From the NCBI GenBank assembly GCA_003550305.1, contig QKYT01000659.1, positions 1 through 64,000 on the forward strand: a DNA stretch of 64,000 bases, in the 5' to 3' direction. Source of the DNA: Glomus cerebriforme. Its lineage: Eukaryota > Glomeromycota > Glomeromycetes > Glomerales > Glomeraceae. Within the stretch, counting starts at the first letter, position 1. Each line of letters opens with the position of its first letter. A model generated the notes under the pieces. The model saw only the letters and a list, made by a program, of their open reading frames with translations. It did no database searches and had not been told where the DNA came from. This document shows, piece after piece, positions 7,521-26,524 of this stretch. The translations under genes were made by a program, and so were the position numbers.

Positions 7521-8982
7521 ATTTATTAGAATAAAAATTATACATAATAAATATATAAATAATTCAAAAGTTTAATTATTTTATAATTTAAATTTATTTG
7601 TTATTTTATTTTTTATTATAAAATAATCATTTATAATGATTGATCCACTAAGATCAAACTTCCACTATCCTTTGATACATAATTTTCTATATAGTTTTAT
7701 CTTAAAGATTATATTATTTCTGTTCAACCAAATCTGTTTCACCTGAAAATATTCTCTCTATAGGTATACTGAAAGTTATAAAAAATAATAATAGTATATA
7801 AACAAATAATTTAATAGAAAATTTATCAATTTTATATATTAACCTAAAACAGCTAGATAGTTATATGCCATTTTTGATAAGTTTAAATATTCTTTTTTAT
7901 ATAACTATAAAAAAATAAGAAAAAAGTAAATTCAATAAAATTAATTGTATAATAATTCATAATTAAATATAATATTAATATACTTTCCATCAAAAAAGAA
8001 TGTCTATTTTTTTAAAAGCTATTTTCTTATTAAGGTATAATTTAAGTTCATCCCTATTATCAATTTTTTGTTTTTTAAAAATATGATCAAAAATGGCATC
8101 TAAATCATTTGCTAAAGATTCTTTAACTTCAGTATTATTAATCTTGTATGTAATTTTCTACAAATTAGTAATTAATAATTTTACATTCTGTATAAATGGT
8201 TCTTCTTATTGGTTATTAATATATATAGTATTAAAATTTCAAATAAGGATCTATTACTATATATAATTAAATAATTAATTATAAATGTAATAAATTATGT
8301 AAAGCAATCAAAACAAAACTTACTTGTAGTTATTGTATATATTTCTTCTTTTGTAAATGCATAATATTTTTTATTTTTTTCAATTGATTAATTTAAGACA
8401 TATAATATTATATTATCATTCTTATCATTCTTATTGTAATTATCACTTTCTTTTATTTTTGGAATAGCATTGCAAAAAGGATCAACTGAAGTAAAGCAAA
8501 TGCAATTTGATAGAAATTAATGTAAAAGAAAATTTTAAAGTCTTATATTAAATTATAATGTATGTATCATATATAAATATATAAAATTATATATTAGGTA
8601 ATTAATTCTTTATATTTTAAGAAACATGTTTGTACATGAAAGGAGATGGAAAAGGGAGATATTCTGTTTTGAAAAATCATTACTTTGAAGAGTTCAATAC
8701 TCTTTTTTAGTAAAGGTTTGGTAATTATTAATAATAAATATACTGTATAATTAATTATTTATTTTATATATTTTTAATATTGTAAACTGAATTTATTTAT
8801 ATTTTAAATTTAATAATTGAAAGAGTACATAAAACAAATGAGAAAACACAAAAATAATAAAACATTCATGTGAGAAATATATAAAGAATTTGATTAATAT
8901 AATTTCTTGAAAATGATTATTTATTTCTTTTATTTCTTTTGTAGTAAATGTCTTTTTTTTAATTATTTAATATATTATTTTT
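7521..8982. other. AT-rich region with a possible minus-strand exon fragment
   Basis: Mostly AT-rich DNA. On the minus strand about 8155-7985 is open for some 55 codons (it contains NNTEVKESLANDLDAIFDHI and KKQKIDNRDELKLYL) and ends at a TGA. It has ordinary protein composition but no recognisable family or start, and is most likely a remnant. Nothing else is seen up to the left terminal repeat. Confidence 0.35.
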
Positions 8983-9580
8983 AGTAGATATCACTATCGA
9001 TAAGTAGCGAACACTCTTATAAAAGTGTTCGCTACTTATCGATAGTGATATCTACTTATAGTTATAAGGTTTTCTACTTATGAATATAGTGTTGTCTACT
9101 TATATATGAGTTACCTACTTACTTGTTTTTATTGCTCTATACCCTTATTATTATTTTCCTACATTATTTATCTTTTTTGTTTTTTTTTGCTATTTTCATT
9201 TTAAGCTTGTTAGCCATTGTAATTACTTTATTGGCTATTTATTGTTATTGGGCTTATTTAATTATTTTATTTATTTCTACTATAATATGATTTCTTATTA
9301 TATTTCTTGGAGATTATAGTTGGTCAGGAATGTTATATGGGTTATGTTTAGTCTTGCTATTTTTGAAGCTTTTTAGGCTCTCTTTATATATTTGATTTTT
9401 TGTATATAGGTTGTTGGTTTAACTCTTTTTTAATAATATTTTTTTATATCTTTTTTAGCATACTTCATGCCTTTGTGAGGTTATTTGAAATCTGATTTGG
9501 CATCCAAGATGTCATAGTGGGTGGGTAAAAAATATCATGTGAATTGTAACCTGTTAATCAGTTTTCTTTCCTTAATATCT
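8983..9580. repeat. Left long terminal inverted repeat
   Basis: It begins with a perfect palindrome: arms 8983-9015 and 9024-9056 (33 bp each, starting AGTAGATATCACTATCGATA) around an 8-base loop. Inward, the box CTACTTA recurs at roughly 20-base spacing to about 9122. The rest is T-rich and matches the right repeat inverted, up to about TTTCTTTCCTTAATAT. Confidence 0.85.
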
Positions 9581-9729
9581 TCCATACACATGGGTAGAGA
9601 AGTTAGAATAAACCTTTCACTTATCATATTATTTAAGGCTAAAGTTCCGCTTGATTGGGATAATGGTGAATATTAAATAATAACATTCAATTCTAGCAAT
9701 CAGCCAATCGGATAATTCACAATAGTAAA

Positions 9730-10736
9730 AAATATTTCCATGATTTCTATATTCTTTCCACAATCGGGAAATGGACATGAGTTTGGTATATTAAGCATAA
9801 GCTTTTTTTCAGTACAGAGTCTATAAAAAATGTGTCCACAGTGTAGTCAGGTAAACTTTTTGAAAGGAAATATCAAAATTTCATATTACATTCGGAGCAT
9901 GATTCTAATTCTGGAAAATTATATTTCTGACAGCTTTATCATCGAGACTTTTGAGAATATTATATTTGAGGTTTCTATACCTAACAAGAGAGAGATTATC
10001 AGATGAGGGAGTACTGTTTTTTTCTCTAGGCGTCTTGAGTGGTTCTGAAATCAGCTCATTATTTTGTTCAGAATCCGTCATACTGATTCCTTTTCTCTCT
10101 GGATAATAGGGTTCAAAAAAAAAATACTGACCTGTTTTTATATCACTTGTAAATTTCGCAGGAAAAAACATTCCCCAGATTTTTACCAGCAATTATACAC
10201 TGCATTTCGTCATTTGTTAATCTCTTGCAAATTGATAAAAATAAATTTTAGGTAATCAGTCTCACATGACGGAGTTTCTATGCTACGATCATGAATTTGA
10301 ATTTATTACTTAAAGTGAAGCAAGTAAGACAATATTCTGTTCCATACCATTCGCCATGTAATCCATAATTCTCATGTTTTCCATCGCAAATAGGACATGG
10401 TAAGCTTCACAATTGAGGTAATGCAAAATTATAATTATCAATCCCTCTGAAACTATTTCAGAATTTCAGGTATGTGAAATGTTCTAAGACAGTCTTAATA
10501 ATTAATTCTGGATCAGGTTTGGCTTTGAAAGTGAAAGGTTTGAAATCAGAGGCTTGAAATTCTGCTAACATATTTATCACAGCTTTTGGTAATTGCCATG
10601 ACTCATATCCAGTTTCTCTTTTATATTTTTTGTATAAATTGGAATGAATCTTGTCCATCAAAATGCATAGTAAACCAGTTAATTTGACAAGCCAATCCAG
10701 ATACTCAGGGATTAATACTTTATCAGACTTGCTCAT
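9730..10736 (-). pseudogene. Remnants of a zinc-binding/RING-like multi-domain protein
   Basis: Three minus-strand blocks follow one another. Block 10736-10458 is an intact 92-codon frame (IPEYLDWLVKLTGL, YKKYKRETGYESW). Block about 10420-10270 carries a Cys/His cluster (PCPICDGKHENYGLHGEWYG, then EYCLTC). Block 10192-9730 has an acidic stretch (MTDSEQNNELISEPLKTPRE) leading in a shifted frame to a RING-like pattern (CSEC, LHCGHIFYRLC, CPFPDCGK). The RING part is interrupted by a frameshift and an in-frame TGA. The blocks are probably exons of one gene together with the coiled-coil block upstream at 10891-12372. They look like a multicopy Glomeromycotina family, by recall only. Function is unknown; zinc binding is inferred from the cysteine spacing. 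Confidence 0.5.
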
Positions 10737-10890
10737 ATTGCCTTTTTATATGATTGCAAATTAATTTAAATTACAGTAGGTAATAGCCAACATAAATTAG
10801 CCTATAAAAAAAATAAAAAATATCACAGTGAAGTGTAAGCAAATATAGTATTATAAAATAATGAGACTATGCAGTTATCGCAATTTCATG

Positions 10891-12372
10891 CTATTCACAT
10901 TTAATAAAGTAAGATTTAGATTTATACCTACCTTCTATGCTTTCCTCATTATCATGATTTAAACTGCATAACGGGCATGATGTCTCGTTAGTAATGCCAT
11001 AATAATCAAAATTTTCACTACTAAATTCCCTATATAAATTAGGATATTGATCCAATGTCTTATTTCTAAAATAGGATCGGTCATAAGTTGGCTTAGATTG
11101 GAATGCAAATGATACACTTGCCGATGAACTCATTCCCAAGAGATTCACTTGAATCTCAGTCTTATTGGTTTTTGAAATCACGTGTCCGTTCCAATTTGGA
11201 ACGAAGTTTTCATAACCTACATTATTCATATTAGTAGCTTTTTTGGAAAAATCATTTATAATGTTCTGGATCTGGTTATTAGATAAATTTGAGATGACAC
11301 TTGCGCTATAGCTAATTATTTGGATTCTATTTATTCTTATCCCATCAAACAATATATAGATTTTTTTAGATTGGAAAGTTATTTTATGCAAGTTTACATC
11401 AGTAATGTCAGGAAGAAGGGGTTTGATTTTGCTGTACACCAATATTCTTGCTGATTTGTTATCAACACTATTCTTAGATTTAACATCCTCAACTCGATTC
11501 TCATATGCTTTATAGTAATAATACTAGTATAAAATCTTCTTACGTTTAAGCTTCATTGCTACTCTAAATAAATCAACTATATTCTGTGCCATAACTTTAC
11601 TAGATCCCATCAGAATTACTTCTAAAGAGAGTTCAGAAATCTGAATATCAAACGCCTTATTAATCTTACTATTACTAACTTCAGTGAAAGATAGTTCCCG
11701 TCTCAAATCTTGCTCCACTTTTTGATTATAAGGAATTTTTTGACACTTCATATTTATATTCTCAGAAGTTTCTACCATAAATGATTTTATTGGTGATATC
11801 CCAGCAGATGATTTATTACCAGAAATAACTGGAATCAATTCTTTGACTACCTGTTTTGGAAGGGTTACAGGTTCAACACTAGTCATGGAGAGATTCTCTT
11901 CACAGTAAATCAAGTCTGAAGTAACTGAGGATAAGTCTTTGGCAATCATCTTATGCTGAATCTTCTTTTTCCACCTCCTTTCTCTAATTTTGTCACCAAT
12001 GCTTTTCTTATTTACCTCAACCAAAAAAGCATCTATCTCCATTTTCTCTAATGTTTTAGTGTCAACATTATTTTGCTGGTCTATTATGGTGTTAGATAAA
12101 TCAATATTTGATACCGTTACCTCTGGCAGTACTTCTACAATCACTTCTTTATTATTCTGTAGTTGTTCACCCACCACCAAGAAACTCTGTTCCAATATCG
12201 TGAGTATAACCTCAAGTTCTTTATTTTTTTACTTTAGTTCCTCAACTTTAACATCATGCCTAACATTCTCCTCAATAATTTGCCTCAGTTTCACGATCTC
12301 AACCTCAAGCTCGTAATTCTTACCCACAAGTCTGGCATTTTCTTGCCTAAGTAAATCAATCTCAAATTCCAT
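10891..12372 (-). pseudogene. Coiled-coil protein with a C-terminal zinc-like motif, broken
   Basis: The likely start is ATG 12372. The first ~45 residues form a leucine/glutamate-rich coiled coil (LLRQENARLVGKNYELEVE). They are interrupted by an in-frame TAA near 12229 and resume in the same frame down to 11524 (KIRERRWKKKIQHKM, basic). The next block, 11510-10891, is in another frame and could follow an intron or a frameshift. It contains SASVISNLSNNQIQNIIND, WNGHVISKTNKTEIQVNLLG and, at its end, DYYGITNETSCPLCSLNHDN with a CPLC...H motif. This resembles a multicopy family of Rhizophagus genomes, by recall. No biochemical role is known to me. It sits head-to-head with the intact gene at 12998, about 625 bp apart. 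Confidence 0.55.
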
Positions 12373-12997
12373 TTTTGATAATACTTTATACAAGTATTCA
12401 AAATAAAAAAGTCATTGTGTCCATTTCAATTTGAAACGCAAATCACTTTTGCCAAGAAAAAAATGTTTATTAATATACGCAAAAAATAAATACAAGTTCG
12501 GAACATAGCCTGTGATACATACTATAATTTCATTTTACAAAGTGAAATGTTTCTATACTAATGCCTAAGAACTACACCAGTTTTTTACAACCTATGCTAA
12601 TACATTATCTCAACATTAGCTTCTTCATTTGCCCAAATAACTGATATTTTAGATAATATAAAATGGTCATTAGTTATACTTATATGAGATATGCAGTGAT
12701 AGAAAATAAACCAATAGTTCATAACATTAACCTTATGCTGAAAAGTTATGTTGTTTGCATTTCATAATTAGTTTGCAAATTCTGAAAAATTTTGTAACCA
12801 TAAGATCCATCTCTAATCACGTGACTAATGTGAACACTGATTTGACATAATGGGATATCATGTAGCACAAAACTAAATATAAATATGTATGTATAATATA
12901 ATTTAATTGTCTTCTTAGCTTAATCACTTTTCTTACTCATATCATCTTATTATATTCATTAAAAATTTTTTATTGATATTTTTAATAGTACATCAAA

Positions 12998-14204
12998 ATG
13001 GATAATATTAACTTTGCCTCAGCTAACTCTATTTCTGATAACCTTGATCCTTATGTTTTATTTTCAACTAAGGAAGAAATGGACACTAGAAAAGGTAACT
13101 TTAGCATTGTTATAAAAAATAAGAAAAAGGAATTCCCTAAAGTATTTTTCATAGATCTGGAAGATTATCAAAAAAATGGTGCAGAAAAGCAGAGTTGCAA
13201 AGGAAATTTACGAGCAATTTCTTCTGCTATACAAGTAAGTCTCAAAGTTTGGCTTTTGCTTTCTTTTATGCATGACATGATGTTGATGCCTGTTCTTTAA
13301 TGCACATCAGGAACAACAATCGAATTTCCCTCAGTACCGATTGTTCATAACTAATGACTGTGAGTGTGAACAGAGTTACGATCTCTATAGAAATCCCAGA
13401 GGATGCTCTCTGTTACTTAAAACAGGTGAAATATCTTTTTTAGCATCTCGAACAACTTTGTTGATGAATAATTATGATGGTGAGTCGAAACAAACGTCCA
13501 ACAGCAATCAACGCTTCTTGAAAAGTAGACCAGGAGAAAATTATAAGCATTGCATTTGGTGCGTCAGTTTCAGCTCACAAAAAGACAAAGGAAGAAGTAG
13601 CTTTATTCTGACAAAGCATCGACCGATACCTTTTTCCTCAGAAAGATGGAGTTATAATTTCAATTATAGTAAAGTGGGAATTCGGGAATTGTGCGGAGAT
13701 GAATGCCTGGACTTCCTTATGCCAGTTCAGAACAGATCTTCCAATCAAGATTTGAACAATATCGATTCAGACAAAAGAAGTAATGTTACCATGCGAGAAT
13801 TGCGAAGCTTGTCAGAATTGGTTGATGCTGTTAGGAATAATTGTAAATTTCATGAATTCGATGAATCCCAACTTAAATATAAATGGATAATTGATGAGGA
13901 AAATAAGGAATATTTCAGTGATGCATATGGCATCACTAATATTAATCCATTACTTGTAGATAATTATGGAATGAATATTTTATTTTTAGATAGTCGTGGC
14001 ATTCTATTTGAATGGTGTGAATTTACAAAAGACATGTATGTCTTAGGAATCAATAAAATGGAAGGCCTTGCGAATTTACTTTATCATCCAGAAAAGAGGC
14101 TCAAGATTATGGAAGACACTGGTGAGATGATACCTGATGTGGAACTTAAACAACAAGCAAAAGAAATTGTGAAAGCTCAGCTTGCTAATTTAAAAAAAGC
14201 GTAA
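12998..14204 (+). CDS. Intact two-exon gene of unknown function inside the element
   Basis: Exon 1 is 12998-13234 and exon 2 is 13311-14204. The 76-bp intron has GTAAGT...CACATCAG ends and joins phase 0 to phase 0, giving 376 residues and a TAA stop. TATA-like AT-rich DNA and a pyrimidine-rich leader precede the ATG. The protein is soluble-looking, with no signal peptide or membrane helix. It has a cysteine-containing centre (TNDCECEQSYDLYRNPRGCS, ENYKHCIWCVSF, LCGDECLDFLMP) and a charged C-terminal helix. I recognise no family. It is the only multi-exon gene within the 17.4-kb element that shows no stop or frameshift, so it may still be under selection, be recently acquired, or serve the element. 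Confidence 0.75.
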
Positions 14205-14657
14205 TATAAGAAAGATCAATTTGGTAACTGCATCTTTATAAAATATTATAGGATTCTTTTGCAGAATATTATAATACTTAGTATATATGAAAAGGTTCTT
14301 TGCACTTTGGATTTTAAACTATGTAATATAAAAATTATTATGATCAATAAAAAATAATTATCATAAAGGCAAGACTTTATTGTATTTTTTGTAAAAGTAT
14401 TATTTGAGAAAGTGTAAGTAAAAATAAATGTAAAAGCAGTGTTATTTAGCTCAAATGACATGATGGATGATAATTATTAAAATATTCAAAAGTTTGTTAG
14501 TATATATAAGATGATATAATATTCTGGCAAGAAAACCATTAGGTTATGTCAGTTTGATCATAATAAATTTGTCATGGTTTTTTTTGCCAAGAAAATTTTT
14601 TATTATTATATGCAAAAATAAATACAAATATTTGGGACGCGTAGCTCGGGATACATA
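14205..14657. other. Intergenic, AT-rich
   Basis: This is the space between two convergent genes of the element. Only AT-rich DNA is seen; a plausible polyadenylation zone for the upstream gene follows its stop. Confidence 0.4.
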
Positions 14658-15773
14658 TTATTTTTTGATAAATTTTTTGATCCTAACCCTCTTACTAGTC
14701 AGAAAACTATCTACACTAACCCGTTCCTTCAACAACCCTACAATTATACCGATTACCCTTTTTACGTTGCTTCGAAGTAATTCAGAATTATCTTTAACTG
14801 TGAACTTCGTAAGATTAATCTGATATTCATTACCACTTGTGGAGAAGATACCATCTGGAATATATATGATAAAATGCCACTCTGTACCTGTGATCACAAT
14901 ACCATAAATATAGTCAAAATAGTCATTCCTAAACACTTGATCCAATGTTCATTTCTTTTTATTGGTCTGGAATGCACTTTCAAGTTACGCCAAATTCTGA
15001 AGAAAAAAATAAAATGCTATTAATACTATTGAATCTTCTATAAAGCACGAACAGATAGTAAATTTACCTGCGCATATCTGATTTTAATATTACGAAGCTT
15101 TCCTTCAGTGATACATAGGAAGTCTTCTAGACTTTTGATTGCGTAGTCTACTCTGCCTGTTATATCCTCACTGGATATATCTTTCTGTAAAACTATAAAT
15201 ATATCTTGAGAGGTAAGTTTTTTAGCTATAGTGATGGATGCATGAAGAATCGATGAAATAAATTCACAGCATGTCACCTCATTGGCATCGGTCATAGTTT
15301 TCACATTTGAAAGTTTTAATATAATGTCTTCTATACAGTGTTTGAATGCCTTATCATCATCACTAATCTCCTCAAAGACTGCAGGCAGAGAAAAATAAGT
15401 TAATATATGTAATACTCCAATCTGGAAAATTAAGAGAGTAATCACATACCAGGAGTAAACTGCTTGATGTTTGTTATGTCTTTTCCATTGACCTTATTTC
15501 TATGTAACATTTCCTTCAAGTCATCGAGAGTTTTAAGTGAAGAATAGTTTCATAATTTCTGGCCAAGACTCTTAATAAATTCTGCAAGTCTTTTTGCAGG
15601 ACCAACTTTCATGTCATAACTTTGAATTTCCTTTTTACTTGTATTAAAAAATCACTACTAGCTATTTCTTCCTTATGTAAAATTTTGAAGTGAGATTCCT
15701 CTAACTTCAAGTTTTTCTTCTTCAAATATTCGATAAGCTTCTCCATATTAAAATCTTTAATAACATCCGACAT
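14658..15773 (-). pseudogene. SAM-like N-terminus multi-exon protein, broken
   Basis: ATG 15773 opens a SAM-like helical domain (MEKLIEYLKKKNLKLEESHF, then KVGPAKRLAEFIKSLGQKL after a frameshift near 15640). An intron with GTATGT...CTGCAG ends lies between about 15448 and 15381. The second exon (15380-15066) is clean (FEEISDDDKAFKHCIEDI, VLQKDISSEDITGRVDYAIK). A second intron (GTAAATTT...TTCTTCAG) leads to exon 3, where an expected Gln is TAA and an expected Arg is TGA before the frame continues (FDYIYGIVITGTEWHFIIYI) to the stop at 14658. It looks like a multicopy family I associate with Rhizophagus genomes. Function is unknown; SAM domains mediate protein contacts. The nonsense changes are the C-to-T type seen across the element. 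Confidence 0.6.
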
Positions 15774-16155
15774 TGTTTATAAAGAACCTTCTTCTGTTAT
15801 TGAACTTGGAGAAGAAGGTGTAGAAGGTTGTAAAGTCATAGTTTTTATATATGTAAGTTTATATTTGCGAAAAAATATGCACTTGACTGCAGTTACAGGT
15901 AAAGCTGATTTATGAATATAAAAGTATTTTGGTTTCAGCGCTCAGAGAGAAATGATAGATTTTTTTGTATTGATTAATGCTTTTACTCAATATATATGTA
16001 ATTAAGATGTAGTACAGAATGGTCAGGTGACATAATTTCACATGACATTTACAGCAAGAACATAATATATGTTTTATTTAAAAAATAAAAAAAAACATTA
16101 CCAGAACTCGACCTACAATACATAAAAATTTGCGACTATATCACTATTCATTTCA

Positions 16156-16536
16156 CTATTGGGGTGTTTTAATATCTAAATAAATTATAATATGAATATC
16201 TTTTTCAGAAGATTGCTTAGGAAAATGATCAAGAATATTGAGCATTGAAATCAGTGCCTGTCCTTCATCCTGTCTCCCACTATTCACGCTTATCATCACT
16301 CCTTCAGCATTAACCGATGCTAGTACTTTATCTGAATTTAAGGGAATTGCATGGACTACAAATTCAGTAATTAGAATATTATCAAATCGGGAAGTATGTT
16401 CTTTTTTAATTTGTGATCTGAGAGAATGGACGGATTTATTGTTGTTAATTTTGATTGTAACGACATGTTGTTGTGTAATTCTCCCAACTGAATTGCTAGG
16501 AACAACAAGACAATTAATAAGCCTGATTTCTGGCAT
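16156..16536 (-). CDS. Crinkler (CRN)-type N-terminal ubiquitin-fold domain protein
   Basis: The frame is intact, 126 codons, starting MPEIRLINCLVVPSNS. It shows the layout of the Crinkler N-terminal domain: a short beta-rich start (INCLVVP), a helix with HSLRSQIKKEH, and a hydrophobic core (RFDNILITEFVVHAIPLNSD) followed by LASVNAEGVM and the terminal strand DIHIIIYLDIKTP. CRN-type proteins in oomycetes and early-diverging fungi are modular. This domain normally precedes a variable C-terminal effector or enzyme domain. Here the frame stops right after the domain, and no attached C-terminal part is visible downstream (below 16156), so it is either a stand-alone domain protein or truncated. 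It lies between two broken genes of the element. Confidence 0.6.
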   Translation of the reverse strand: MPEIRLINCLVVPSNSVGRITQQHVVTIKINNNKSVHSLRSQIKKEHTSRFDNILITEFVVHAIPLNSDKVLASVNAEGVMISVNSGRQDEGQALISMLNILDHFPKQSSEKDIHIIIYLDIKTPQ

Positions 16537-17225
16537 TTTGCTTTTCCTAAATATTAATGTTCATAGTGAATAAAGTTTCATTCATACAGATGCAATAATC
16601 CTTTGAAACATTTTTTTTTCTAAAAATATACAATAAAATATATTACCTTAAAATTTTGTGGAAAAGTTGGCTGAACTTTCACATACTCCTACATGCTTTA
16701 TATCTTGCTGGGAATGAGTTAAGGAGGTATGAGGCGTAATTAGTATTGTCGTCTGATACTAAGAGTTCTATAAAAGTATATGTAAATGGAATCCTCATAC
16801 CTTTTCACATGGAGATCTACCAGAAAGACATATAATTGGACTTACACCTGGCAATCTCAAAATTGTGAGTCCTTCAGCCCTTCATAACATATGCTTTTAA
16901 TGTTAATATTTACTTTTAGAGCTGATCCTATATTACAACTAGACCTCCTTTCACATTTTTCTCATGATTGTTTAGAAAAAAATAAAGAACAAAGGTTAAT
17001 ATGTTTTTCTTTTAGAATATATGAAAATTATTATATTATACAAGACCTGATTGATGATCTACTTACTTTTCTATCGCATAGGAGTAACCTGCTTATGATG
17101 CAAAAAATTCTGATCAATGATCACCGCTCCAGATTAGTTAGATTGATAGAGTACCACCATTCCTTAGAGGGTTGTGTTAATTCTTGACTAAGAAATACAG
17201 AAATAATATTCTGTATACCATCTGC
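16537..17225. other. Non-coding stretch with a repeat fragment
   Basis: No convincing gene. The stretch around 17040-17165 (CAAGACCTGATTGATGATC..., TAACCTGCTTATGATG...) recurs in degraded form near 18233, 18995 and 19771, so it is an outlying copy of the tandem repeat that carries the fragments at 18377 and 19138. Confidence 0.45.
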
Positions 17226-18139
17226 TTATCTAAGATAATTATTAAATGCAGTAACAAAATTGTTCAGAGTATCAGCCGTACCCATAATTATCGGAGGAGG
17301 CGTATTGTTATTATAGATGACTTCTTCATCCTCGCTCTCATCCTCAGAGCTAGAACATTCAGACTCTGTTTCAGTGTATTCTGAATCATAATATTCACTT
17401 AGATCAAGATTTCTCATAACTTTATGATGTTTGAAAAATTTGGTTATTATGATTTCTCCATCTGAATCTGTTGCAGTAAAATCAGGAAATAATAGCTCGT
17501 AAAATGTATGCAATGAAAAAGATAATTCCCAAAGATTTTTTCTACAGTGATATTGTATTTTTTTCCTTTCTTATTCTTTGATCTCTTTAGGTTTATTAAT
17601 GTATATTAGTGGGTTTTGATATCTGTTAACAGCATATCCTGTATGTATTAGCCATACATTTCCTAAAACCAAATCGTATTCAGGCTTATTAATAACTACA
17701 AAATTTGCTGTATCTATTCCCAAATATGAAGGAGTACTTTCTCATCAAAGATATTTGGCAAAGTGACAGAAATTTCTTCTCTATCAATCCAACCTCTCCT
17801 CATCACTTTCTTATCAGCATTTGTTACGCCAATGCCAAGGTCTCTTACTGCAGGATATCTTGACCCATATTCTCTAGAAATATATAAATCCATTTTTTTG
17901 GCAAACATCTTACTAATGCTACCATAAAAGGATTTAAGATTAATCAGTACTTTGACAGTTATTTTAGCACAAGTGAATGTACAATCCACTATTAATCTTT
18001 TGCGAATTTCTTGAAGTGCCTCATCTTTCTATATATTATTTATACTGCAACATTTTTTAAAATTCTGTATCAATAAATTCTTTAGAATAAAGGGTATTAA
18101 TTTAGGCGCAAGCTGATCAAATAAATTAGCTATATGCAT
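17226..18139 (-). pseudogene. Retropepsin-like aspartic protease protein with acidic tail, broken
   Basis: From ATG 18139 the frame runs through an in-frame TAG (18029-18031), a frameshift near 17722 and an in-frame TAA (17571-17573) to a stop at 17226. The middle is retropepsin-like: ITVKVLINLKSFYGSISKMF stands where VKxLIDSGxSxxFIS is usual, and PEYDLVLGNVWL matches the second hallmark, PEYDxILGxxWL. The catalytic D-S/T-G triad reads N-L-K, so this copy could not be an active aspartic protease. The C-terminal part is very acidic and serine-rich (DSEYTETESECSSSEDESED). Similar proteins accompany Ty3-like retroelements, but no reverse transcriptase or integrase is present here. It may be an element-borne, domesticated or captured gene. 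Confidence 0.6.
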
Positions 18140-18376
18140 TTTATATAATTAGTAAAAATTTCAATCAGAAAAAATAGAGAGATTAGTTAGCTAATATTTT
18201 CTTTTGATATATGCAAAAATTAATATATCGCACAAGACCTGACTGATGATCCACTTATTTTTGTCACACAATCTGTAACTCAGTAAATTCTTCTGAACTA
18301 ATGATTACTGCTTCGGTTGATGATCAGTATTTCAGACACAAATTTGAATATATGCTAGCTAGAGATAAACAAAATC

Positions 18377-18973
18377 ATGATAAGTAATACTAATATTAAT
18401 TCTGATAAAAGCGAAGCTCAATTATATGAAGTGCTTTTGTATAAGAAGAAAGATATAATAGCTATTCAAAAAAAACTCAGTATGTTCTCAGACCCAGGGA
18501 AGGGACTTATTGAGAGTAGAAATCAAACAGTATTGAATTAAAGCAAAAAAGAAAAAATACTTGAAAATTCGTTTGGGCTGTTATTTGATTTGGTGGAAAA
18601 TTAATAGATATACGGGAAGATCTTAATGTGAATTGCCACCCCCATTCTTACTATATTATATAATAATATACATAATCTTGAGGGAGAAACATATGGGAAA
18701 AGGTCACTTGGGACATTATATCATTTGCTTTTATATTTGGAAGAGAATATAAGCATGATTCAGAATGTTCTTGGTATTGTTGATCATTCTGATCAGGAAA
18801 TAAGTGGATTAGAAAATTCCTTACCTTTAGTACCTTTGGCAGAAAATGATCCAGATGTGTTAATACAGAAATTCATCTATAGGAAGTGGAAATGTTTTAT
18901 TTTATTAGAAAGTAACTACCATTATTTCAATTGTGTAAAAATTTGGCTAGTGTCTGTGTCTAGAATAGGTTAG
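18377..18973 (+). pseudogene. Duplicated small helical protein, copy 1
   Basis: ATG 18377 begins a protein with the segment LYEVLLYKKKDIIAIQKKLS. A TAA at about 18540 ends it after 54 residues, and the related downstream segment (LLYLEENISMIQNVLGIVDH, then DVLIQKFI) is open only as a separate frame, 18725-18973. The two segments resemble each other (LLxxLExxIxxIQxxLGI), so the original protein probably had two copies of a short helical unit. The family is unknown to me. Confidence 0.4.
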
Positions 18974-19137
18974 CTAATCTATATTTTTTTTTGTCACATA
19001 GGAGTACACGTGAGGCTCCAGCAAAAAATCTTCTGAGCTGATGATCACTGGAATGATGATCAGTATTCCGGACTCAGCTTTTAAGGCACTTCGCTAAATT
19101 TTTCGCATTAAATATATTACTTTATTATAGCAATCAT

Positions 19138-19749
19138 GGCGAACATTAATACCAAAATGCTTGCTCAGTTTTATGAAGTACTTTTATATAAGAAGAAGGA
19201 TATAATAGCTATTTAGGAAAAAATCGGTATTGGTAAGAATGCAAATCAGTTGGCAGTGCCTCCAGATTCTAAGCTCATGAGAAAAACATTTGCTGATTCA
19301 TACGAATTGTTGTTAGAATTGGTAGGGATTTAATACCAATATAGGAGAATCTCAACATTGATGGTAATCCTGTTCTAGAAGTAAAATATTGAAGCAATGA
19401 AGCTTTTGCAGATATTTCGTTTGGTGAAATATTTAATTTGCTTATGTATTTAGAAGATAATATAATAGCAATTCAAGAAAAGCTTGGTATTATTGGTTAT
19501 TCTAATCAAGAAAGGGCAGAAGAAGCTGATAAAACTGCATGAGAATATCTTCGAAAGTTTAAGAAATTTTACAGCCCTTTAGAAGATGCTCCAAGTGTAT
19601 TAATACAAAAATTCATCAATAAGAAAGTAAAAATGTTTTATTTTACTGGAGAGGGACTACCATTATTTCTGAAGGTCACTTCTCAACAATTACATGAAAT
19701 TTTTATAAAAAATTCAACTAGCACTAATCAGTGCCCATGCCTAGTATAA
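19138..19749 (+). pseudogene. Duplicated small helical protein, copy 2
   Basis: ATG 19138 starts MANINTKMLAQFYEVLLYKK. TAG replaces Gln in IAIQ/IAI-stop relative to copy 1, and the frame continues (FADSYELLLELVG) to a TAA. A second segment (LLMYLEDNIIAIQEKLGIIG) is followed by TGA, then resumes (VLIQKFINKK). Damage is mostly nonsense without frameshift. Compared with copy 1 it keeps the more complete middle region. Confidence 0.4.
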
Positions 19750-19984
19750 GTTAGCTAATCTATATTTTTTATCACATAGACTATAACCCAACAAAAAATC
19801 TTCTGAGCTGATCACTGATCCAGATTAGTTAAATCGGTAGAATACCACTATTCTGGAACTAATATTCTTTTAACAGCTCTATCATCACTCTGGACTCACA
19901 TTTATCAGATAGCTAATTAGCCTTATTTTTATTATATATGTTTTTCTCCTGATCTTTCCTTTGAACTAGGCGCTTCCAAATCCT

Positions 19985-20215
19985 TTATTGCTTAATCATG
20001 TTTATTATTTCATCAATATTAGAATTGGATGAACTGGATTCAGATGAGCTAGTCTCAGATGATGAACTAGATTCAGACGAACTACTCTTAGATGACGAAC
20101 TAGACTCGGATGATGAACTAGTCTCCGATGATAAACTGTTCTCAGATGAGCTTGATTCAGATGAACTAGTTTCAGATGGAATAGACTTGGGCGGAATATT
20201 GGTTAAAGATATCAA
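19985..20215 (-). CDS. Serine/glutamate low-complexity frame
   Basis: The minus frame encodes (SSSSES)n-type low complexity ending DEIINMIKQ; the opposite strand is also open because of the repeat. It lies just downstream of the coiled-coil gene at 20367-20762 on the same strand and could be that gene's last exon. No independent start is convincing. Confidence 0.3.
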   Translation of the reverse strand: MISLTNIPPKSIPSETSSSESSSSENSLSSETSSSSESSSSSKSSSSESSSSSETSSSESSSSNSNIDEIINMIKQ

Positions 20216-20366
20216 ATGCTTTTAATAACTTTTCATTTTGATTATTATCTAATAAACTTAATATGTTTAATCAAAAAAATCTGGGGTTCTCTCAAAAAAT
20301 ATTCGCTTTCTTTATCTTAATCTTTCTTGATCATGCCCTTCTTCGTTGCTTATAAGGGACATCCTT

Positions 20367-20762
20367 TCATTCTCTTATTACATATGTATCAACCAAATCA
20401 GATTCTTTGGAAGACTCAGACGAATAGAAGAAACTCTTACCTTTTTTACCAATCAGTGAGGGTACTATTTCATGTATTATGTCGACCAGAGTTTTCCTAT
20501 CTACACATTCGTTCAGATCTTCTAATTCGGTCTCTAAGAACTTTACATCTTTCTCTAATCTTTTTACCCTCTTTTCTAAAGTGTTATGTTGGAAATGATA
20601 ATCTTCCAATTGTTTCTTTAGTGTCCTATTTTCACTGGAAAGCGCACTATATACTTCTGCATTTTGCTCGTTTAGTCTGAACATTTGGATTAATTTCTCC
20701 ATATATCTGATAACTTCCTGCTCGCTAGATATATCAGATGAATGATTTTGATCAGCTACCAT
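20367..20762 (-). CDS. Coiled-coil protein of unknown function
   Basis: An intact 131-codon frame from ATG 20762. Residues ~15-90 form a long amphipathic coiled coil (MEKLIQMFRLNEQN, RTLKKQLEDYHFQHNTLEKR, KDVKFLETELEDLN), followed by a serine/acid-rich tail (SSESSKESD). There is no membrane segment. It resembles the coiled-coil N-termini of other element genes in this window. The C-terminus may be spliced to the Ser-rich segment downstream. A structural or dimerisation role is inferred only. Confidence 0.5.
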   Translation of the reverse strand: MVADQNHSSDISSEQEVIRYMEKLIQMFRLNEQNAEVYSALSSENRTLKKQLEDYHFQHNTLEKRVKRLEKDVKFLETELEDLNECVDRKTLVDIIHEIVPSLIGKKGKSFFYSSESSKESDLVDTYVIRE

Positions 20763-20886
20763 TTTTGTGATATATTTTATATGCTAGATCTTGTCTTGAG
20801 CAAAAAAATAAAATTAATAAATGATATCAGACTGATAAATCAGTCCTTCCAACTCTCCAACCCATATATGTGATTAGTTTGGTTCC

Positions 20887-21423
20887 TTAGAAACCATTTT
20901 CATTGAAGAGCTTGCATAACTGATGACACTTTTTTTGAATTTTATTAGATCTTTGGATAAGGTCTGGATTTTTGGCATAGATATTAATAATCTTGGAATT
21001 CATCCCGGCTTTTATTAATTCCTCACGAAATCGATATTGGCATAAGGCGCCTATTATGACTTCTTTTTTATCATTATTTTTTGGTTCTAAAATTATACTA
21101 TGGCGATAAATATTCCACTTATTACTAGTCTTGGCACAACATTCTGCCCTTGTCACTATAGTAAACTTTTCCTTTCTTTTATCTGATACAAGAGCTTTTA
21201 TCTTTTCTTTACTAGATTTATATTAGGTTAGAAGATCTTTAACACATTTATGGGCCTTCCAATTCTGTAGTGATGCATTAAGCTCTTTATTATATTTACT
21301 TAATTGTTCTGGAGTGGACTTAGCAGATAAGCCATATTTTTCTAAGAACTGTTTTAGAAACGATTTAAAGTTATTAGTTTTGGCCCTCCTTCGGACCTTT
21401 GGGATTACTTTTGTGATATTCAT
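20887..21423 (-). pseudogene. Basic protein of unknown function with one in-frame stop
   Basis: ATG 21423 opens a strongly basic start (ITKVIPKVRRRAKTNNFKSF). One TAA at 21223-21225 interrupts, and the same frame continues through EKIKALVSDKRKEKFTIV to a stop at 20887, about 178 codons overall. The C-terminal half contains cysteines (ECCAKTSN, KKCHQLCKLF). Basic charge and position beside the helicase gene hint at a DNA-binding role, but no domain is recognised. Confidence 0.45.
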
Positions 21424-21592
21424 ACTAACAATAAGTAGATTGTTGGAGAGTACTTATATAGTACTTATAGCAAAAAAATAATAATAATTTAGAATTTTAT
21501 ATTGCCTATATGTAAAGATTATAAAAATCCTCTTACCCAAATATCTTTCTTTTATATAGCGCCTTCAGTTAAACTGGCTTCTTATTCGCTCT

Positions 21593-24500
21593 TTACCAAA
21601 GCATATCATTCTTCTGAAATATGCTTATTGTTTTTTTCCATTTTTCATCAGTATCAAGCCAGAAGGATGTGATTCTCTTATTCTCGAGAGAACAATGGAT
21701 TATTTCTTCTCCTATTAATCTTTCTCATACTGTCATGTCCATATGTTCTTTGGGATCATCCTCTAACTCTATAGCCCAAGTATACATTTATGAATCAGAT
21801 TCTATTCTATCACAGAATGTGGTAGAATCGAGCCTGTCTTTTTCAGTGATGGTCATGAAGATATCTGGGTTCTCACTAAATTTGATTGCCTTTTTTCTGA
21901 GACGCTCTTCACGCTGAGATTTGGACAAGAGAATAGTAAGTGATATCTCATTAGTAGGTTTGAAAGGCTTACTGGCTTTAGGCTTATCAATTACTAGTTC
22001 AGATTATTCAGAAGTCTTAGTAGTTTTGAATACCTTAAAGGTTAAGGCAATTGGAACATCTGCATTTTCTGCCACATAGTCAAAAAGAGCTTGGGTCGAT
22101 TCATCCTATTTATCCACTTTCTTATTCCTCAAAGAGAGATTCTCTTCTGGGTGAGGCGGGATTATTTTCTGGAGAATAGTTGGGATCACTTTAGTAACTG
22201 CCATTTCTGATACATTAAATATGGGTATGTCTGTGGTCTCATTAGCCGGGAACTCATCTGCCTTTAGCGTCTCTGGCTAAGGTATATCAGAAAATTCTTC
22301 CATATCATCTAGACCAGATTCACGGAACTTGGTTACAATTTTGAAATGGTTAAGAATATAGTGATATTCTCTTTTTTCATTATTTTGTAAATGTGTTCTA
22401 TCAATACCAATTTGTGAAAACTTCTTCCCTAGAATAGCGCTAGCAAATGTTTTTTCTCCATTATTTTTATACTAAGCAATTTATTCTTGATATAAATTTG
22501 TATAGTATGGCCTATCAATTTTTTCAACAGGCCATGAGGAAGTATGATCAATTATAAACCGAATAGGATTAGAAAATTGATCTCGCATTATTTTTGCTCT
22601 CATTTTTGTATTGGGAATATTTTGTGATATCCAATCTAAAGGTCGCGTTTAAGTAAATAATTCATAAAAATACCAGGTATATTTGGATTATCTAAAATTT
22701 TTCCTAAACATTTAAAATATTCCATATTTCCTTTACATCGAGGCGATACATCTAGACATATAATACATCCATCACCTATTTTAATGTGAAGTGATACATT
22801 ATGGTTACTTAAAACTATATACCTAACAAAGTCTTTAATTGTCTTAAGCTCAAGCCCTTTGCACTCTATTGTCACGTATAGTTCAGTTATGAGTAATTTT
22901 AAATGATCATTGGCCTTATACCATTCTCCAAAGGCCATTCCAGCCTCATTTAAAAGGATAAGTTTTTGTGCTTATATGCAACTATTAAATCTTCCCAATA
23001 CCTTCTTAAGATCTGATGTCGCAAAAAATAATTCTGACCCTAGTACTTCCTTTCTAATAAAATCTGTCAAGATATTTTTTCCAGAATGTGGAGGTGAGCG
23101 TAATACTAAAACAATATCAGGTTTCTTATTAGAATATTGTACAAGATATGCAAACCAATTGAGAACATATTCTGAAAGAACTTTATTTACATTATACCAG
23201 ACATTTTCTATATGCCAGATTATCAGCTCAATAAGAGCGAAATCTATTTCAATGATAGGCACTTTAAAACCAAGAAGAGGTTAAAAAACTTTGTATTTGG
23301 TGGGAGTAACATGATGGGTATAGGAGGAAATCAATGCCTCAATATTGAATTAAACCTTTTATGACCGCCTGATCTACTAGATTTACTAATTTTACCGCTT
23401 CTTCTTCTAGCTCAATTAAGTTAATTTCATACTTAGTAATTTCGAGCTTAGATGATATCTTAAAGAAATGATTACTATCAGAATTCTCAAGTTTTAATAC
23501 CTATAATTTTGTATCAATTTGAATGCATGCTATTGTTGATTGAACGGCTTCATATATAGCATTGCAAATGAATTTTTCTTTTATATTACACATGTCAATT
23601 AGATCACTCCAAATGAAGTGATCGTTAGGATCTGATATTCTGGAACGGTCTAATTTTCTAGGGCTCAGAAGCTTCTTTTCTCGATTTAAGGCAGTTTCAT
23701 TAATAATAAGTTTTTTTGAAGGATTTCGCATTTCAGGTTCCTGATCCTGATTGGCACGGTAGCAACAAAATCTATATGTTTTATTTTTTTGTATAATATA
23801 GGCATTTTCATTACTATGCTCCTGATCATATAATGGGCAGTATGATAGGAAGTTGTGAGTTAATGGAACAAATCTGGAATGTTATCTGAGGGGGTGAGAG
23901 AGTATACCCTTCGATACAATTATCTCTGAGTAATGTTTTCACAAAATCAAATTCCGTCTGAGTCATTTTGCCATTAGTATCATTACACCTTTTGGCTTCT
24001 AGTTCTGGAACGACTAAGAGAGGACTTTCTGCTATTTTTAATTCATTATTTGGCAGGCGAATCATGAAGTTAAAAATGGTTTCATCTTTGGGATATATTG
24101 CTTTTTTCACATGAATGTGCTCCTTTGCTTTTTTATCATACTTGGGCAAACCAAGCATTCGTAAGAAAAATGAACGTTTATTCACAATATTATCTATAAT
24201 ACTATTTGCTTGTAGAGCTACCAGAACTTTTTTATGAATGAATTTAGTAAACAATGCAACTTGAGCAATATTTTTAAGTCTCATACCAAAAGTTGAGATA
24301 TGAAGAGACATTTTTTTCACATCACTACTACTCACAATAACTATAGTTTTAGGATCCCACTTTAGGAATATCTTCAAACATATCTTTCTAAAAGCAAGAA
24401 TAAGTGAATCTAGTACCTCTTTACATGTTAGTTTAGGCTCAATAGTATCAAGCACTTCTTGTGGCAAATCAAAGTCTATAATAGATCGAAGTGGCTCATC

Positions 24501-24707
24501 CTCATCAATGAATTCGTGTAAAAAATGACCCTCACGATTTGAGAGTATAGCTTCTATTTCATCCTCATTGTTTATGCCTAGAAAATGCCTTAGTCTAATA
24601 CTATCATTACAAATTTTATAAAAGCATTTACTAATATCTTTAGCTTTAAAATCTTGTTTATATAGGGCGGAGACGTCGAGAAACTCTGAAAGCTCGAATT
24701 GGGTCAT
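21593..24707 (-). pseudogene. Primase (AEP/PrimPol-like) - D5-type SF3 helicase gene, broken
   Basis: From ATG 24707 an 293-codon block has archaeo-eukaryotic primase features: LRSIIDFDLP with the metal-binding D-x-D at residues 78-80, and SSSDVKKMSLHIST with the conserved His near 136. A shifted frame gives a Cys motif (YCPLYDQEH..., FCCYRA, about 23860-23740). The block 23262-22636 is a D5-type SF3 helicase with Walker A SPPHSGKN, Walker B LILLNEAG, a sensor-like LSNHN and CLDVSPRCKGN. The last frame (22638-21593) holds NNGEKTFASAILGKKFSQIG. It contains seven in-frame stops (22481, 22472, 22277, 22106, 22004, 21788 and 21725) but no indel. Other lesions are frameshifts near 23880, 23300 and 22640, and a TAA near 22973. 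In viruses and plasmids this pairing primes and unwinds DNA for self-replication. Confidence 0.75.
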
Positions 24708-24828
24708 AGTAAAAATTTTTGGATATGTTATCTAGTATACCATTTCAGTATAATATCCCAGTAAAAAAGTTTAAAATAAAAATAAATAATTATTATAGAT
24801 ATCAAACTAATACCCAAGCATAAAATCA

Positions 24829-25071
24829 ATGGGTGGAAAATACGTTTGCCATTATCTCTCTGATGAAGAAATAGTTTGTGGGAATGGAAGTATGTGACCA
24901 GAAGGATGTCATATTCACTGGAAAAGATGCCAGCGAGCTCTATGCATACAAAATGGATGTGTAAGACCGATGGCTTCTAAATATGAGTTTTGTAATTTGC
25001 ATGTAAATAAGTGCCATTCGAAAGCAAATTATTACCAGAAAAAAATGAATAAGATGTTTCAGGACTGGTAG
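24829..25071 (+). pseudogene. Small Cys/His-rich protein with one in-frame TGA
   Basis: ATG 24829 gives an 80-codon frame with evenly spaced zinc-ligand-like residues: VCHYL, VCGNGS, then TGA, PEGCHIHWKRCQR, CIQNGC, FCNLHVNKC. The frame resumes cleanly after the TGA and ends in TAG. It is divergently placed to the primase-helicase gene (about 120 bp between starts) and is the last coding trace before the right terminal repeat. The spacing suggests a zinc-binding fold; the family is unknown. Confidence 0.45.
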
Positions 25072-25772
25072 ACTCCAGAAGCATTAGAGTAGGCTCTCGA
25101 TAAAATAAAAATGTCTGATACAATAGAGTACTGGCCTTAGAAAAATCTACCCTAGGAAAATACGTCTTAAAAAATTTTTGACTTTCAGAGGCAGAAGCGA
25201 AATAGCAAATTAACTTTATTAAAATGCTAGAATAGTTTCTTGAATGGTTTGCCCTAGGTGATCTAGGTAATCTAGAAAAAATCAAACTTATTTACTTTTT
25301 ATTTTTTTTTATCTATAGGTATAGCAAAAATATAGTATACCCATAGCATACTTATAACATACATATAGCATACCGATAGATATAGCATACTGAAAAGATA
25401 TCATAGAAAAAATTCATTTTTTTTCTCTAGAACTTTATTTTACTAGGGCATCTAAGATACCTAGGGAAGGTAATATAGGAATAAGATAAAATAAAAAAAA
25501 GAACGATTTCTCCTATAACAAACTCTGGCCTAGGAAGTGACCCAGTAAAATTTCTGCCTTAGGACATGAAATCGGCATACATATATCAGCACAATAATTA
25601 GGTTGCGAAATGGTGCACTTCTGGTAATCAAATGGGTCAGGCCAAGATAATACATATTGCACTTCTGAGAAGCATAATATCTCAGCCTAAAACAATAACT
25701 ATGCAAGAAAGGGTTCAGAAAAAATAGGAGCAAAAACAAGAGTAACGAAAAGATAACATCACAAATAGAATT
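25072..25772. other. Non-coding end region of the element
   Basis: No gene seen. Around 25315-25400 a short motif (ATAGCATAC with variants) repeats about six times at 10-18 base spacing. Confidence 0.4.
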
Positions 25773-26404
25773 ATATTAAGAAAAGAAAATTAGTTAACGG
25801 GTTACATATCATGTGATATTTTTTACCACTTACCATAACATCTCGAATGCCAAATCAGATTTCAAATAACTTCACAAAGATATAAAGTATGCTAAAAAAG
25901 ATATAAAAAAATATTATTAAAAAAGAGCTAGACCAACAACCTGTATATAAAAAATTAAATATACAAAGAGAGTCTAAAAAGCCTCAAGAATAGCAAGATT
26001 AAACATAACCCATATAACATTTCTGACCAACTGTAATCTTCAAGAAATATAACAAGAAATCATATGATAGTAGAAACAAATAAAATAATCAAATAAGCCC
26101 AATAACAATAAATAGCCAATAAAGTAATTACAATGGCTAACAAGTCTAAAATAAAAATAGCAAAAAAAAAACAAAAAAGATAAATAACATAGGAAAACAA
26201 TAACAAGAACACAGAGCAATAAAAACGAGTAAGTAGGTAATTCATATATAAGTAGGCAACACTATATTCATAAGTAGGAAACCTTATAATTATAAGTAGA
26301 TATCACTATCAATAAGTAGCGAACACTCTTATTAGATATCACTATCGATAAGTAGCGAATACTCTTATAAGAGTGTTCGCTACTTATTGATAGTGATATC
26401 TACT
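25773..26404. repeat. Right long terminal inverted repeat
   Basis: Inverted counterpart of 8983-9580, with scattered substitutions and small indels. Its tip has an extra partial copy of the palindrome arm (26294-26332) followed by the terminal hairpin 26334-26401 (two mismatches). A 61-codon hydrophobic frame (26245-26060, minus) is frameshifted in the left copy, so it is probably not a gene. Confidence 0.85.
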
Positions 26405-26524
26405 TTTTTTTTAATTATTCAATGTAATTATAATTGCAATATTATAAATAATATATAATAAATACTTTAACTTAAATATTGTAAAAGCTAAAACATATGT
26501 AATCAATCTTATAAAAAATTTATT

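Follow-up and report, generated by a model that had tools for sequence, protein, structure and literature searches.

Structure and gene content of the element

The window, i.e. the whole stretch of 64,000 nucleotides that was analysed, contains one element of 17,422 bp from tip to tip, delimited as a single unit by inverted arms and palindromic tips (Table 1). The two arms are identical at 541 of 595 aligned positions, with 38 gap columns, and each carries one tip palindrome of 70-74 nt. Long inverted repeats at both termini had been claimed in a sequence-only reading, and arms of about 595 bp bear this out; the start and end proposed there were exact to the base, with 5'-AGT...ACT-3' outermost and five T on either side. 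In the genome-wide counts the unit is locus C799.

Table 1. Features of the element and its flanks.
Feature	Position	Strand	Remarks
Left copy of 5-bp target duplication	8978..8982	.	TTTTT, low complexity
Whole element	8983..26404	.	Inverted arms, palindromic tips
Left terminal inverted repeat	8983..9578	+	90.9% identity to right arm, 595 aligned positions
Left tip palindrome	8983..9056	.	37-nt arms, score 34; predicted hairpin
Open reading frames	10461..12411	-	
Gene X, unknown	12998..14204	+	Multicopy in genome; 305-codon open stretch in second part
Crinkler-type gene	14661..16536	-	PF20147 in frame 16156-16536; pieces 14661-15651 match C483 Crinkler-type gene
Remnant	17948..18139	-	37% similar to frame L070:4543-4902 of C483 element
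Gene C, internally repeated, broken	18398..19605	+	Common to C483
Coiled-coil gene	20445..20771	-	Common to C483 (72%)
Gene A, unknown	21028..21447	-	Common to C483 element (59%), 1 stop
D5-type primase-helicase gene, frame-broken	21596..24707	-	tblastn with P0010, P0007, P0001; PF19263
DUF5906 (SF3/D5-like helicase) domain, PF19263	22786..23103	-	58 bits, one TAA inside
Right terminal inverted repeat	25773..26404	-	Plus a partial tip repeat beginning near 26293
Right tip palindrome	26333..26402	.	35-nt arms, score 29
Right copy of 5-bp target duplication	26405..26409	.	TTTTT

The D5-type gene is located inside one end of the unit and has, compared with its relatives by tblastn, three frame changes and several stops. 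The gene had been read as an AEP-type primase joined to an SF3 helicase; the PF19263 match upholds the helicase, while the evidence for the primase is weaker. Neither the window piece, searched at E 0.1, nor five relatives, searched at E 5, gave a Pfam primase match. The window piece contains IIDFDLP, SLHIS and RSFFLRMLGLPK, which we take to resemble primase motifs. A fold search with the low-confidence predicted structure of a D5 relative (pLDDT 47.4) ranks mpox E5 (D5-type) first and second and human PrimPol third, closely followed by designed proteins; none of the matches reaches E <= 0.001. A primase half of the D5-type protein is thus weakly supported. In profile searches the D5-type gene of the family matches PF19263 and PF03288, and the helicase domain matches 6k9c and 6k9e (E 1.2e-9), presumably the primase-helicase of phage NrS-1; the likeness to that enzyme lies in the helicase domain, the N-terminal part of the family's protein being unmatched. 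Scans of viral contigs gave four loci at which the match to the D5 query covers just 69-80 residues and one more locus with a 26% match, and otherwise none.

Among the non-host cargo noted earlier between the ends is the N-terminal domain of a Crinkler (PF20147, 32.7 bits, cut-off 24.6), and Crinkler matches recur downstream of the helicase in several copies, that in the window among them. The N-terminal piece of the C483 Crinkler-type gene has no match in the window copy, and frames 11524-12195, 10891-11442 and 10461-10745 gave no Pfam matches. A polymerase, an integrase and a packaging ATPase are not detectable in the window copy. The window copy is therefore regarded as a decayed derivative, its helicase gene being frame-broken and these three genes undetectable.

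Related copies in the same genome

The D5-type helicase gene is found at 42 loci in the same genome. Two fuller copies were delimited: C860, of 31.8 kb, with two tips, GAATT on both sides and inverted repeats of at least 312 bp, and C483, of about 37 kb, with one readable tip and terminal inverted repeats of at least 1.36 kb. C483 thus supplies a second copy with the tip of the window unit and long inverted ends. Inside each of the units C799, C860 and C483 the arms are 91-96% alike. An exact 5-bp repeat flanks both units in which both tips are readable (TTTTT in C799, GAATT in C860); the chance of one such match is 0.005, with two repeats in all, one of them a T-run. Many of the gene matches listed for the family carry stops, and no one copy was found with two tips and all genes, C860 being without a listed A32 match.

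The type-1 tip core, CACTCTTATAAGAGTG, occurs at 22 places with at most one mismatch, and 20 of these lie outside the window, one of them (C790) a chance match. A second tip core occurs at 12 places with at most three mismatches. The reversed-pattern control gave 0 for both cores. The two kinds together make 34 matches, at least one by chance, and mostly a single end was found on a contig. With inner sides chosen by eye, the inner side resembles those of other places at 19 of the 20 type-1 places outside the window (medians per place 39-107, 95th percentile of the shuffle 33.8). Over 230 pairs of type-1 places the similarity was 57.8 for inner sides, against 20.5 for outer sides, which are not alike, and 25.5 for shuffled sequence. 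This inner-side comparison led to rejection of C790:167674 as an element tip, the match being a chance palindrome. C405:48249 and C405:108267 were rejected as a 60-kb pair, as the element lies on the same side of both.

Polymerase, integrase and packaging ATPase in fuller copies

At the end opposite the helicase, fuller copies carry a family-B DNA polymerase gene. The pieces of this gene in C483 match PF00136 (48.3 and 33.4 bits), and PF03175 did not reach its cut-off in these pieces or in four relatives, with one weak match of 13 bits. The best PDB chains for three polymerase pieces are 8ywg/9l8u, which we take to be the African swine fever virus polymerase, with 141, 115 and 89 bits, the next best giving 26.5, 44 and none. 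The polymerase is likely of asfarvirus type, judged by these similarities; the predicted structure of one piece was poor (pLDDT 39.6).

In several fuller copies a match to the retroviral-type integrase domain rve is found 7.3-8.6 kb downstream of the polymerase, and one integrase piece shows D...D...E. Among the five polymerase-rve pairs the Pfam cut-off of 32.6 is passed in C673 and C546 only, the others scoring 31.9 (C483), 27.0 with two stops (C860) and 25.8 (C313). A match to the A32-type ATPase likewise follows the polymerase at 9.2-12 kb downstream in several fuller copies, above cut-off in five of six polymerase-A32 pairs; that of C483 (PF04665, 29.1 bits, cut-off 22.8) has the Walker A motif GRTNSGKT. 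A capsid search with PF04451 gave no matches, its controls being silent too and the interiors of C860 and C483 mostly unread. The earlier statement that no packaging ATPase or integrase gene is visible holds for the window copy but not for the family, fuller copies having matches to both.

Gene order and strand

The order counts took in 42 D5, 41 polymerase, 69 rve and 145 Crinkler loci and 34 tips. D5 and polymerase genes face each other in six pairs (0.33 expected) and never share a strand, whereas polymerase and rve are paired on the same strand five times (0.09 expected) and never on opposite strands. Within 15 kb, A32 is found downstream of the polymerase on the same strand six times (0.07 expected) and in no other arrangement. 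Tips lie at most 6 kb upstream of four D5 and four polymerase genes and downstream of none of either. With 14 of the 69 rve places compared with A32, two pairs are on opposite strands and one is in reverse order; the A32 match at C1104:14318 falls outside the tip at 17122. The gene pairs found keep one order and strand, the polymerase reading inward from one end and the D5-type helicase inward from the other.

Relation to known elements and viruses

Like Polinton/Maverick elements (gene list in the accessible text of PMC4028283), the family is large, with long inverted ends, a family-B polymerase, an rve integrase and a packaging ATPase. That it is an ordinary Polinton/Maverick as known from Rhizophagus irregularis (Glomus intraradices), merely decayed, would agree with the integrase and packaging-ATPase matches of fuller copies and, in the accessible parts of the papers, with early G. 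intraradices Polintons in which no capsid gene was detectable (PMC7805220), the presence of R. irregularis in a tree of protein-primed polymerases (PMC4409740) and Maverick among recent expansions (PMC8647823). This origin is nevertheless improbable, as the polymerase is not of the protein-primed type; a plain protein-primed Polinton was rejected on the PF00136 match and the sub-threshold PF03175 result, and the chains 8ywg/9l8u are by far the best in the PDB. Further differences are the D5-type helicase at the end opposite the polymerase, the palindromic tips, the Crinkler gene and the lack of a capsid match. The target duplications are 5 bp long in both units, whereas those of Polintons are 6 bp. 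The tip cores at 34 places, mostly one end per contig, would fit a smaller repeat that had inserted twice, independently, on either side of unrelated sequence, a further explanation of the inverted arms. Its probability is negligible, however, given arms so alike within each unit, a 5-bp repeat that brackets the unit as a whole and the upstream position of all eight tips that lie near a D5 or polymerase gene; it was rejected on tip orientation and flanking repeats.

The polymerase (likely by type), the D5-type helicase and the A32-type ATPase are giant-virus core genes shared with Asfarviridae and the asfar-like R. irregularis region, and the hairpin-closed inverted ends of African swine fever virus are a likeness to the palindromic tips of the family. 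The copies might be dispersed remnants of an asfar-like giant virus that had integrated, comparable to the 1.5-Mb R. irregularis region, with inverted ends that are incidental. The accessible text of PMC5294986 places R. irregularis DNA polymerase sequences within Asfarviridae, with which the best-matching PDB chains agree, and a giant-virus region does exist in R. irregularis (PMC10640383, accessible text). Against such remains, which we consider very improbable, stand units that recur with similar tips, a single gene order and flanking 5-bp repeats, C799, C860 and C483 already suggesting copies with both tips at one size scale. At 17.4, 31.8 and about 37 kb these are far smaller than the 70 kb or more given for Nucleocytoviricota genomes in the accessible text of PMC10640383. 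The markers that this text names for the region do not include an rve integrase, and the helicase is nearest to the NrS-1 primase by sequence. D5 and A32 were not detected in that study of five R. irregularis genomes, as far as its accessible text goes, despite which relatives named R. irregularis occur among the family matches listed here. Scattered giant-virus debris was rejected on gene order and polymerase-A32 pairing.

Polinton-like viruses and virophages are similar in being host-integrated, of 15-30 kb, with a primase-helicase and an integrase (PMC10120064), and in having a packaging gene and inverted ends (PMC4642659; accessible text of both). They differ in that here no capsid was found, an asfarvirus-like polymerase stands beside the D5 gene and the named relatives, among the matches listed, are Glomeromycotina. 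Ginger2/TDD transposons share the Gypsy-type integrase but have TGTNR ends, against AGT/ACT ends here; a polymerase, helicase or ATPase is not known from them. Among the titles and abstract openings listed from open-licence PubMed Central papers, none described an element of this kind. Transposon surveys of R. irregularis (including PMC8647823) name 'Maverick' families with no structure given in their accessible text, so that repeat libraries may already include some copies with this label.

Interpretation

Taken together, the window very probably holds a decayed copy of a multicopy Polinton-like family. In this family the fuller copies are likely to be replicated as linear DNA by enzymes that they encode, and to be inserted by an integrase of their own. 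The family most likely represents a Glomeromycotina lineage of Polinton-like elements that would replicate from their palindromic ends; the organism-named relatives are all Glomeromycotina among the matches listed (the best 120 of 127, 213 and 307). The earlier suggestion of a perhaps Polinton-like, self-replicating family thus gains support as a multicopy mobile family with a D5-type helicase, but does not apply to the window copy itself, in which the helicase is broken and neither polymerase nor integrase nor ATPase is detectable. The view that it fits no named class is abandoned, because the integrase and packaging-ATPase matches of fuller copies allow a place next to Polintons and asfar-type viruses.

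In the proposed mechanism the D5 protein would prime and unwind and the polymerase would copy the element DNA. Each palindromic tip, to judge by the palindromes, may form a hairpin and so prime synthesis at the DNA end or seal it, and such tips would replace the terminal protein of true Polintons. The integrase would join the linear ends to host DNA by 5-bp staggered cuts, which would leave the 5-bp flanking repeats. The ATPase is predicted to package element DNA in a particle, the coat protein of which was not found. The window copy appears to have lost the polymerase half, and for its movement it would have depended on enzymes supplied by fuller copies.

A bolder reading, tentative and somewhat less probable than its negation, is that arbuscular mycorrhizal fungi have a lineage of small DNA viruses that has not been described before. 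Such viruses would be palindrome-ended, with an asfarvirus-type polymerase and a D5 primase-helicase taking the place of a terminal protein, a Polinton-type integrase, A32 packaging and Crinkler effectors in their own gene set, and would form a bridge between Polintons and giant viruses and a vehicle spreading Crinkler genes.

If the interpretation is correct, Glomeromycotina have a large family of their own of small virus-like replicators of hybrid make-up, combining giant-virus-like replication genes with a Polinton-like integrase and palindromic ends. This would bear on the relationship between Polintons and giant viruses and on how protein priming can be done without, and would provide a setting in which the asfarvirus-like polymerase genes of Rhizophagus, reported as signs of giant-virus infection, could belong. 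The Crinkler genes beside the helicase would make the spread of plant-symbiont effectors by self-copying elements directly testable.

Copies and tips in the assembly

The window corresponds to G000:C799 in the assembly (112.5 Mb, 1117 contigs). The assembly contains 30 matches to PF19263 (DUF5906), the domain of the D5 helicase, and 58 matches to the N-terminal piece of the D5 gene of the window copy. Merging of the two sets gave 42 D5 loci, four of which (C730, C953, C958 and C1101) are based on 28-29% matches alone. One DUF5906 match of 72 bits (G000:C813:40409-40750) has no counterpart among the N-terminal-piece matches listed and perhaps represents a second D5 lineage.

The tips, the terminal palindromes of the inverted arms, have two types of core sequence. 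The type-1 core was found in 22 places with at most one mismatch (none in the reversed control) and the type-2 core in 12 places with at most three (none in the control). The latter was first met in C738, where a palindrome scan found it 1.8 kb upstream of the D5 piece; of its 12 places, those viewed in sequence are the tips in C738 and the two in C860. For the type-1 core, the 20 places outside the window were all compared, the inner side of each being picked by eye. The inner sides resemble one another above the 95th percentile of shuffles in 19 of them, and the outer sides have no mutual resemblance. The place in C790 failed the inner-side test. In 17 of the 20 places the outer arm starts with ACT or AGT, always equally far from the centre, and in two with ATT; the place in C790 has neither. 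Such a constant start is what one expects where an inserted unit has defined ends. The tip motif is repeated just inside the tip in both tip types, an arrangement that would fit a role as binding sites of a protein involved in replication or integration.

Positions of features in the window copy and in the two fuller copies, C860 and C483
Copy	Feature	Position	Remarks
Window	Inverted arms	8983-9578 and 25773-26404	541/595 aligned positions identical, 38 gap columns
Window	Alignment of D5 relatives	24707-21596	three frame changes, several stops
C860	Unit	214130-245926	31.8 kb
C860	Two type-2 tips	around 214140 and 245889	
C860	Integrase (rve) match	226273	two TGA, E 4e-4, 27.0 bits (cut-off 32.6)
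C483	D5	10.0-12.6 kb	
C483	ATPase	32.4-33.2 kb	
C483	Integrase (rve) match	34388-34660	31.9 bits (Pfam cut-off 32.6)
C483	Polymerase	40.7-44.1 kb	five open pieces, two above PF00136 cut-off
C483	Right tip core	45755	
C483	Expected place of left tip	L069, from before 7901 to about 8640	run of N

The window copy and its surroundings

The arms of the window copy end in palindromes of 74 nt (left) and 70 nt (right), and a single hairpin of -55 kcal/mol is predicted for the left tip (ViennaRNA, default RNA parameters). The copy is flanked by TTTTT on either side, and its G+C content is about 30% compared with about 18-23% in the immediate surroundings. Arm divergence is 9.1%, against 4.3% in C483 and 5.4% in C860 (the last over 312 positions); with the highest divergence, the window copy would be the oldest of the three if the arms were alike at insertion.

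The helicase half of the window copy has gene A, the coiled-coil gene, gene C and the later parts of a Crinkler gene in common with the C483 element. The other half consists of gene X, a separate multicopy gene with 49 matches in the assembly, and frames without matches. The window gave no match to polymerase (10 queries), ATPase (4) or integrase (1) at E 1e-3, and none to the C483 frames L070:5162-5590 and L070:9426-9854. At three places, window 12998-14204, G000:C712:13174 and C790:256364, gene X has a convergent Crinkler match about 1.6-2 kb away, and the pair may be copied as a single block.

On the minus strand at 350-4882 there is a block of about 40% G+C that contains a frame of 647 codons and a series of other frames, one of which matches a superfamily-1-type helicase (AAA_30); the block resembles a portion of a further mobile or virus-like element adjoining the window copy. 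A 769-codon open frame at 34111-36417 has ten Myb-like stretches (PF00249, 279 bits). Two similar adjacent open frames are found at 40904-42973; the second, which was the one scanned, has a BTB/POZ match, and the DNA of the two forms a direct repeat of 186 nt (40988 and 42365, 87%). There is also a marginal snoRNA match (SNORD36, 33281-33376, 30.3 bits, gathering 30, E 0.86).

The fuller copies

The C860 unit is flanked by GAATT at either end. Its D5 matches start 339 bp inward of the right tip core, and 3.6 kb inward of the left tip there is a match to family-B polymerase that contains one TAG. None of the packaging-ATPase (A32) matches listed falls within C860. The inner parts of the C483 terminal repeats are 95.7% identical over 1,361 aligned columns. 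The length, about 37 kb, is an estimate, since a run of N covers the place of the left tip. The terminal repeat extends approximately to the start of the D5 and polymerase genes, both of which start with nearly identical residues.

Gene order

Expected counts assume an even spread over 112.5 Mb; repeats are not evenly spread, and the other orientations are therefore the better control. Six D5-polymerase pairs no more than 45 kb apart are in facing orientation (C205, C3, C483, C738, C796 and C860; expected 0.33), with no same-strand or upstream pairs. The integrase match lies 7.3-8.6 kb downstream of the polymerase on the same strand in five (C313, C483, C546, C673 and C860; expected 0.09), none being opposite or upstream; two of these, C546 and C673, score above the Pfam cut-off. 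A32 is found 9.2-12.0 kb downstream of the polymerase on the same strand in six (C200, C205, C483, C625, C673 and C738; expected 0.07; five above cut-off), and no other arrangement occurs within 15 kb. Comparison of 14 of the 69 rve places with A32 gave four same-strand downstream pairs, one same-strand pair in reverse order (C543) and two on opposite strands (C380 and C523). Within 6 kb, tips are found upstream of D5 (four) and of polymerase (four), and downstream of neither. The majority of polymerase, rve and A32 places fall outside such pairs.

The polymerase match at G000:C625:34900 is within an unusually long open frame of 3405 codons. In C1104 a packaging-ATPase match (G000:C1104:14318-14830) lies outside the tip at 17122, with the D5 gene on the tip's other side, and perhaps belongs to a second adjoining element.

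Crinkler genes

PF20147, the Crinkler N-terminal domain, has at least 148 matches in the assembly (150 of 205 candidates scored), or at least 145 loci after merging, most of them outside these elements. At least eight Crinkler matches share the strand of a D5 locus and lie downstream of it at a distance of 3-11 kb (expected 0.33), two of which (C730 and C953) depend on weak D5 matches; none is upstream or on the opposite strand among the PF20147 matches listed. At least five lie 15-45 kb downstream of a polymerase on the opposite strand (expected 0.79), with none on the same strand among the matches listed, and at least one shares the strand of the polymerase at a distance of no more than 12 kb (expected 0.32). 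The window Crinkler scores 32.7 bits and is absent from the assembly-wide match list; that of C483 scores 22.3 bits, under the cut-off. Pieces further along the C483 gene have matches at 14661-15651 of the window, and its N-terminal piece has none there. From these counts and the two genes, Crinkler is recurrent in the elements, not universal. One Crinkler match (G000:C541:13847) is within an unusually long open frame of 4742 codons.

Protein affinities

Three polymerase pieces matched the PDB chains 8ywg and 9l8u with 141, 115 and 89 bits (next best 26.5, 44 and none); we take these chains to be the African swine fever virus polymerase. The helicase matched PF19263, PF03288 and the "Primase" entries 6k9c and 6k9e, presumably the primase of phage NrS-1. 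The integrase piece contains the residues D, D and E, the second D being separated from the E by 34 residues (hand count). In the ATPase, GRTNSGKT occurs together with IFED, which is Walker-B-like.

Among the relatives listed, those bearing an organism name are Glomeromycotina for D5 (120 matches listed of 127), polymerase (120 of 213) and ATPase (120 of 307). In Diversispora epigaea the D5 protein Glove_207g24 and the ATPase Glove_207g15 are each on a contig sized 70,800, and the relatives P0079 (D5) and P0244 (ATPase) are each on a JGI contig sized 35,741. From the equal sizes we infer that each pair shares a contig, a likely linkage of D5 and ATPase elsewhere.

Mechanism and classification

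The unit, its tips, the 5-bp repeats, the gene set and its order in the pairs found are direct observations. Replication would be linear, with the end palindromes acting as hairpins; the integrase would make the 5-bp repeats, and the element DNA would be packaged.

In PMC7805220, the capsid gene of Glomus intraradices Polintons is described as not yet identified. For five R. irregularis genomes, PMC10640383 reports that major capsid homologues are lacking and that D5 and A32 were also not detected. The latter is at odds with the R. irregularis proteins among the D5 and ATPase relatives listed here; our sequences may be too distant from giant-virus profiles.

The family may alternatively be read as a virus lineage. 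We consider it very probable that the family is Polinton-like in way of life, differing from Polintons in polymerase type and duplication length, with replication genes likely of the same type as those of asfarviruses; the integrase scores, the provisional source organism of the PDB chains and the mismatch with PMC10640383 lower this confidence slightly. DNA polymerase sequences of R. irregularis have been placed within Asfarviridae, according to PMC5294986.
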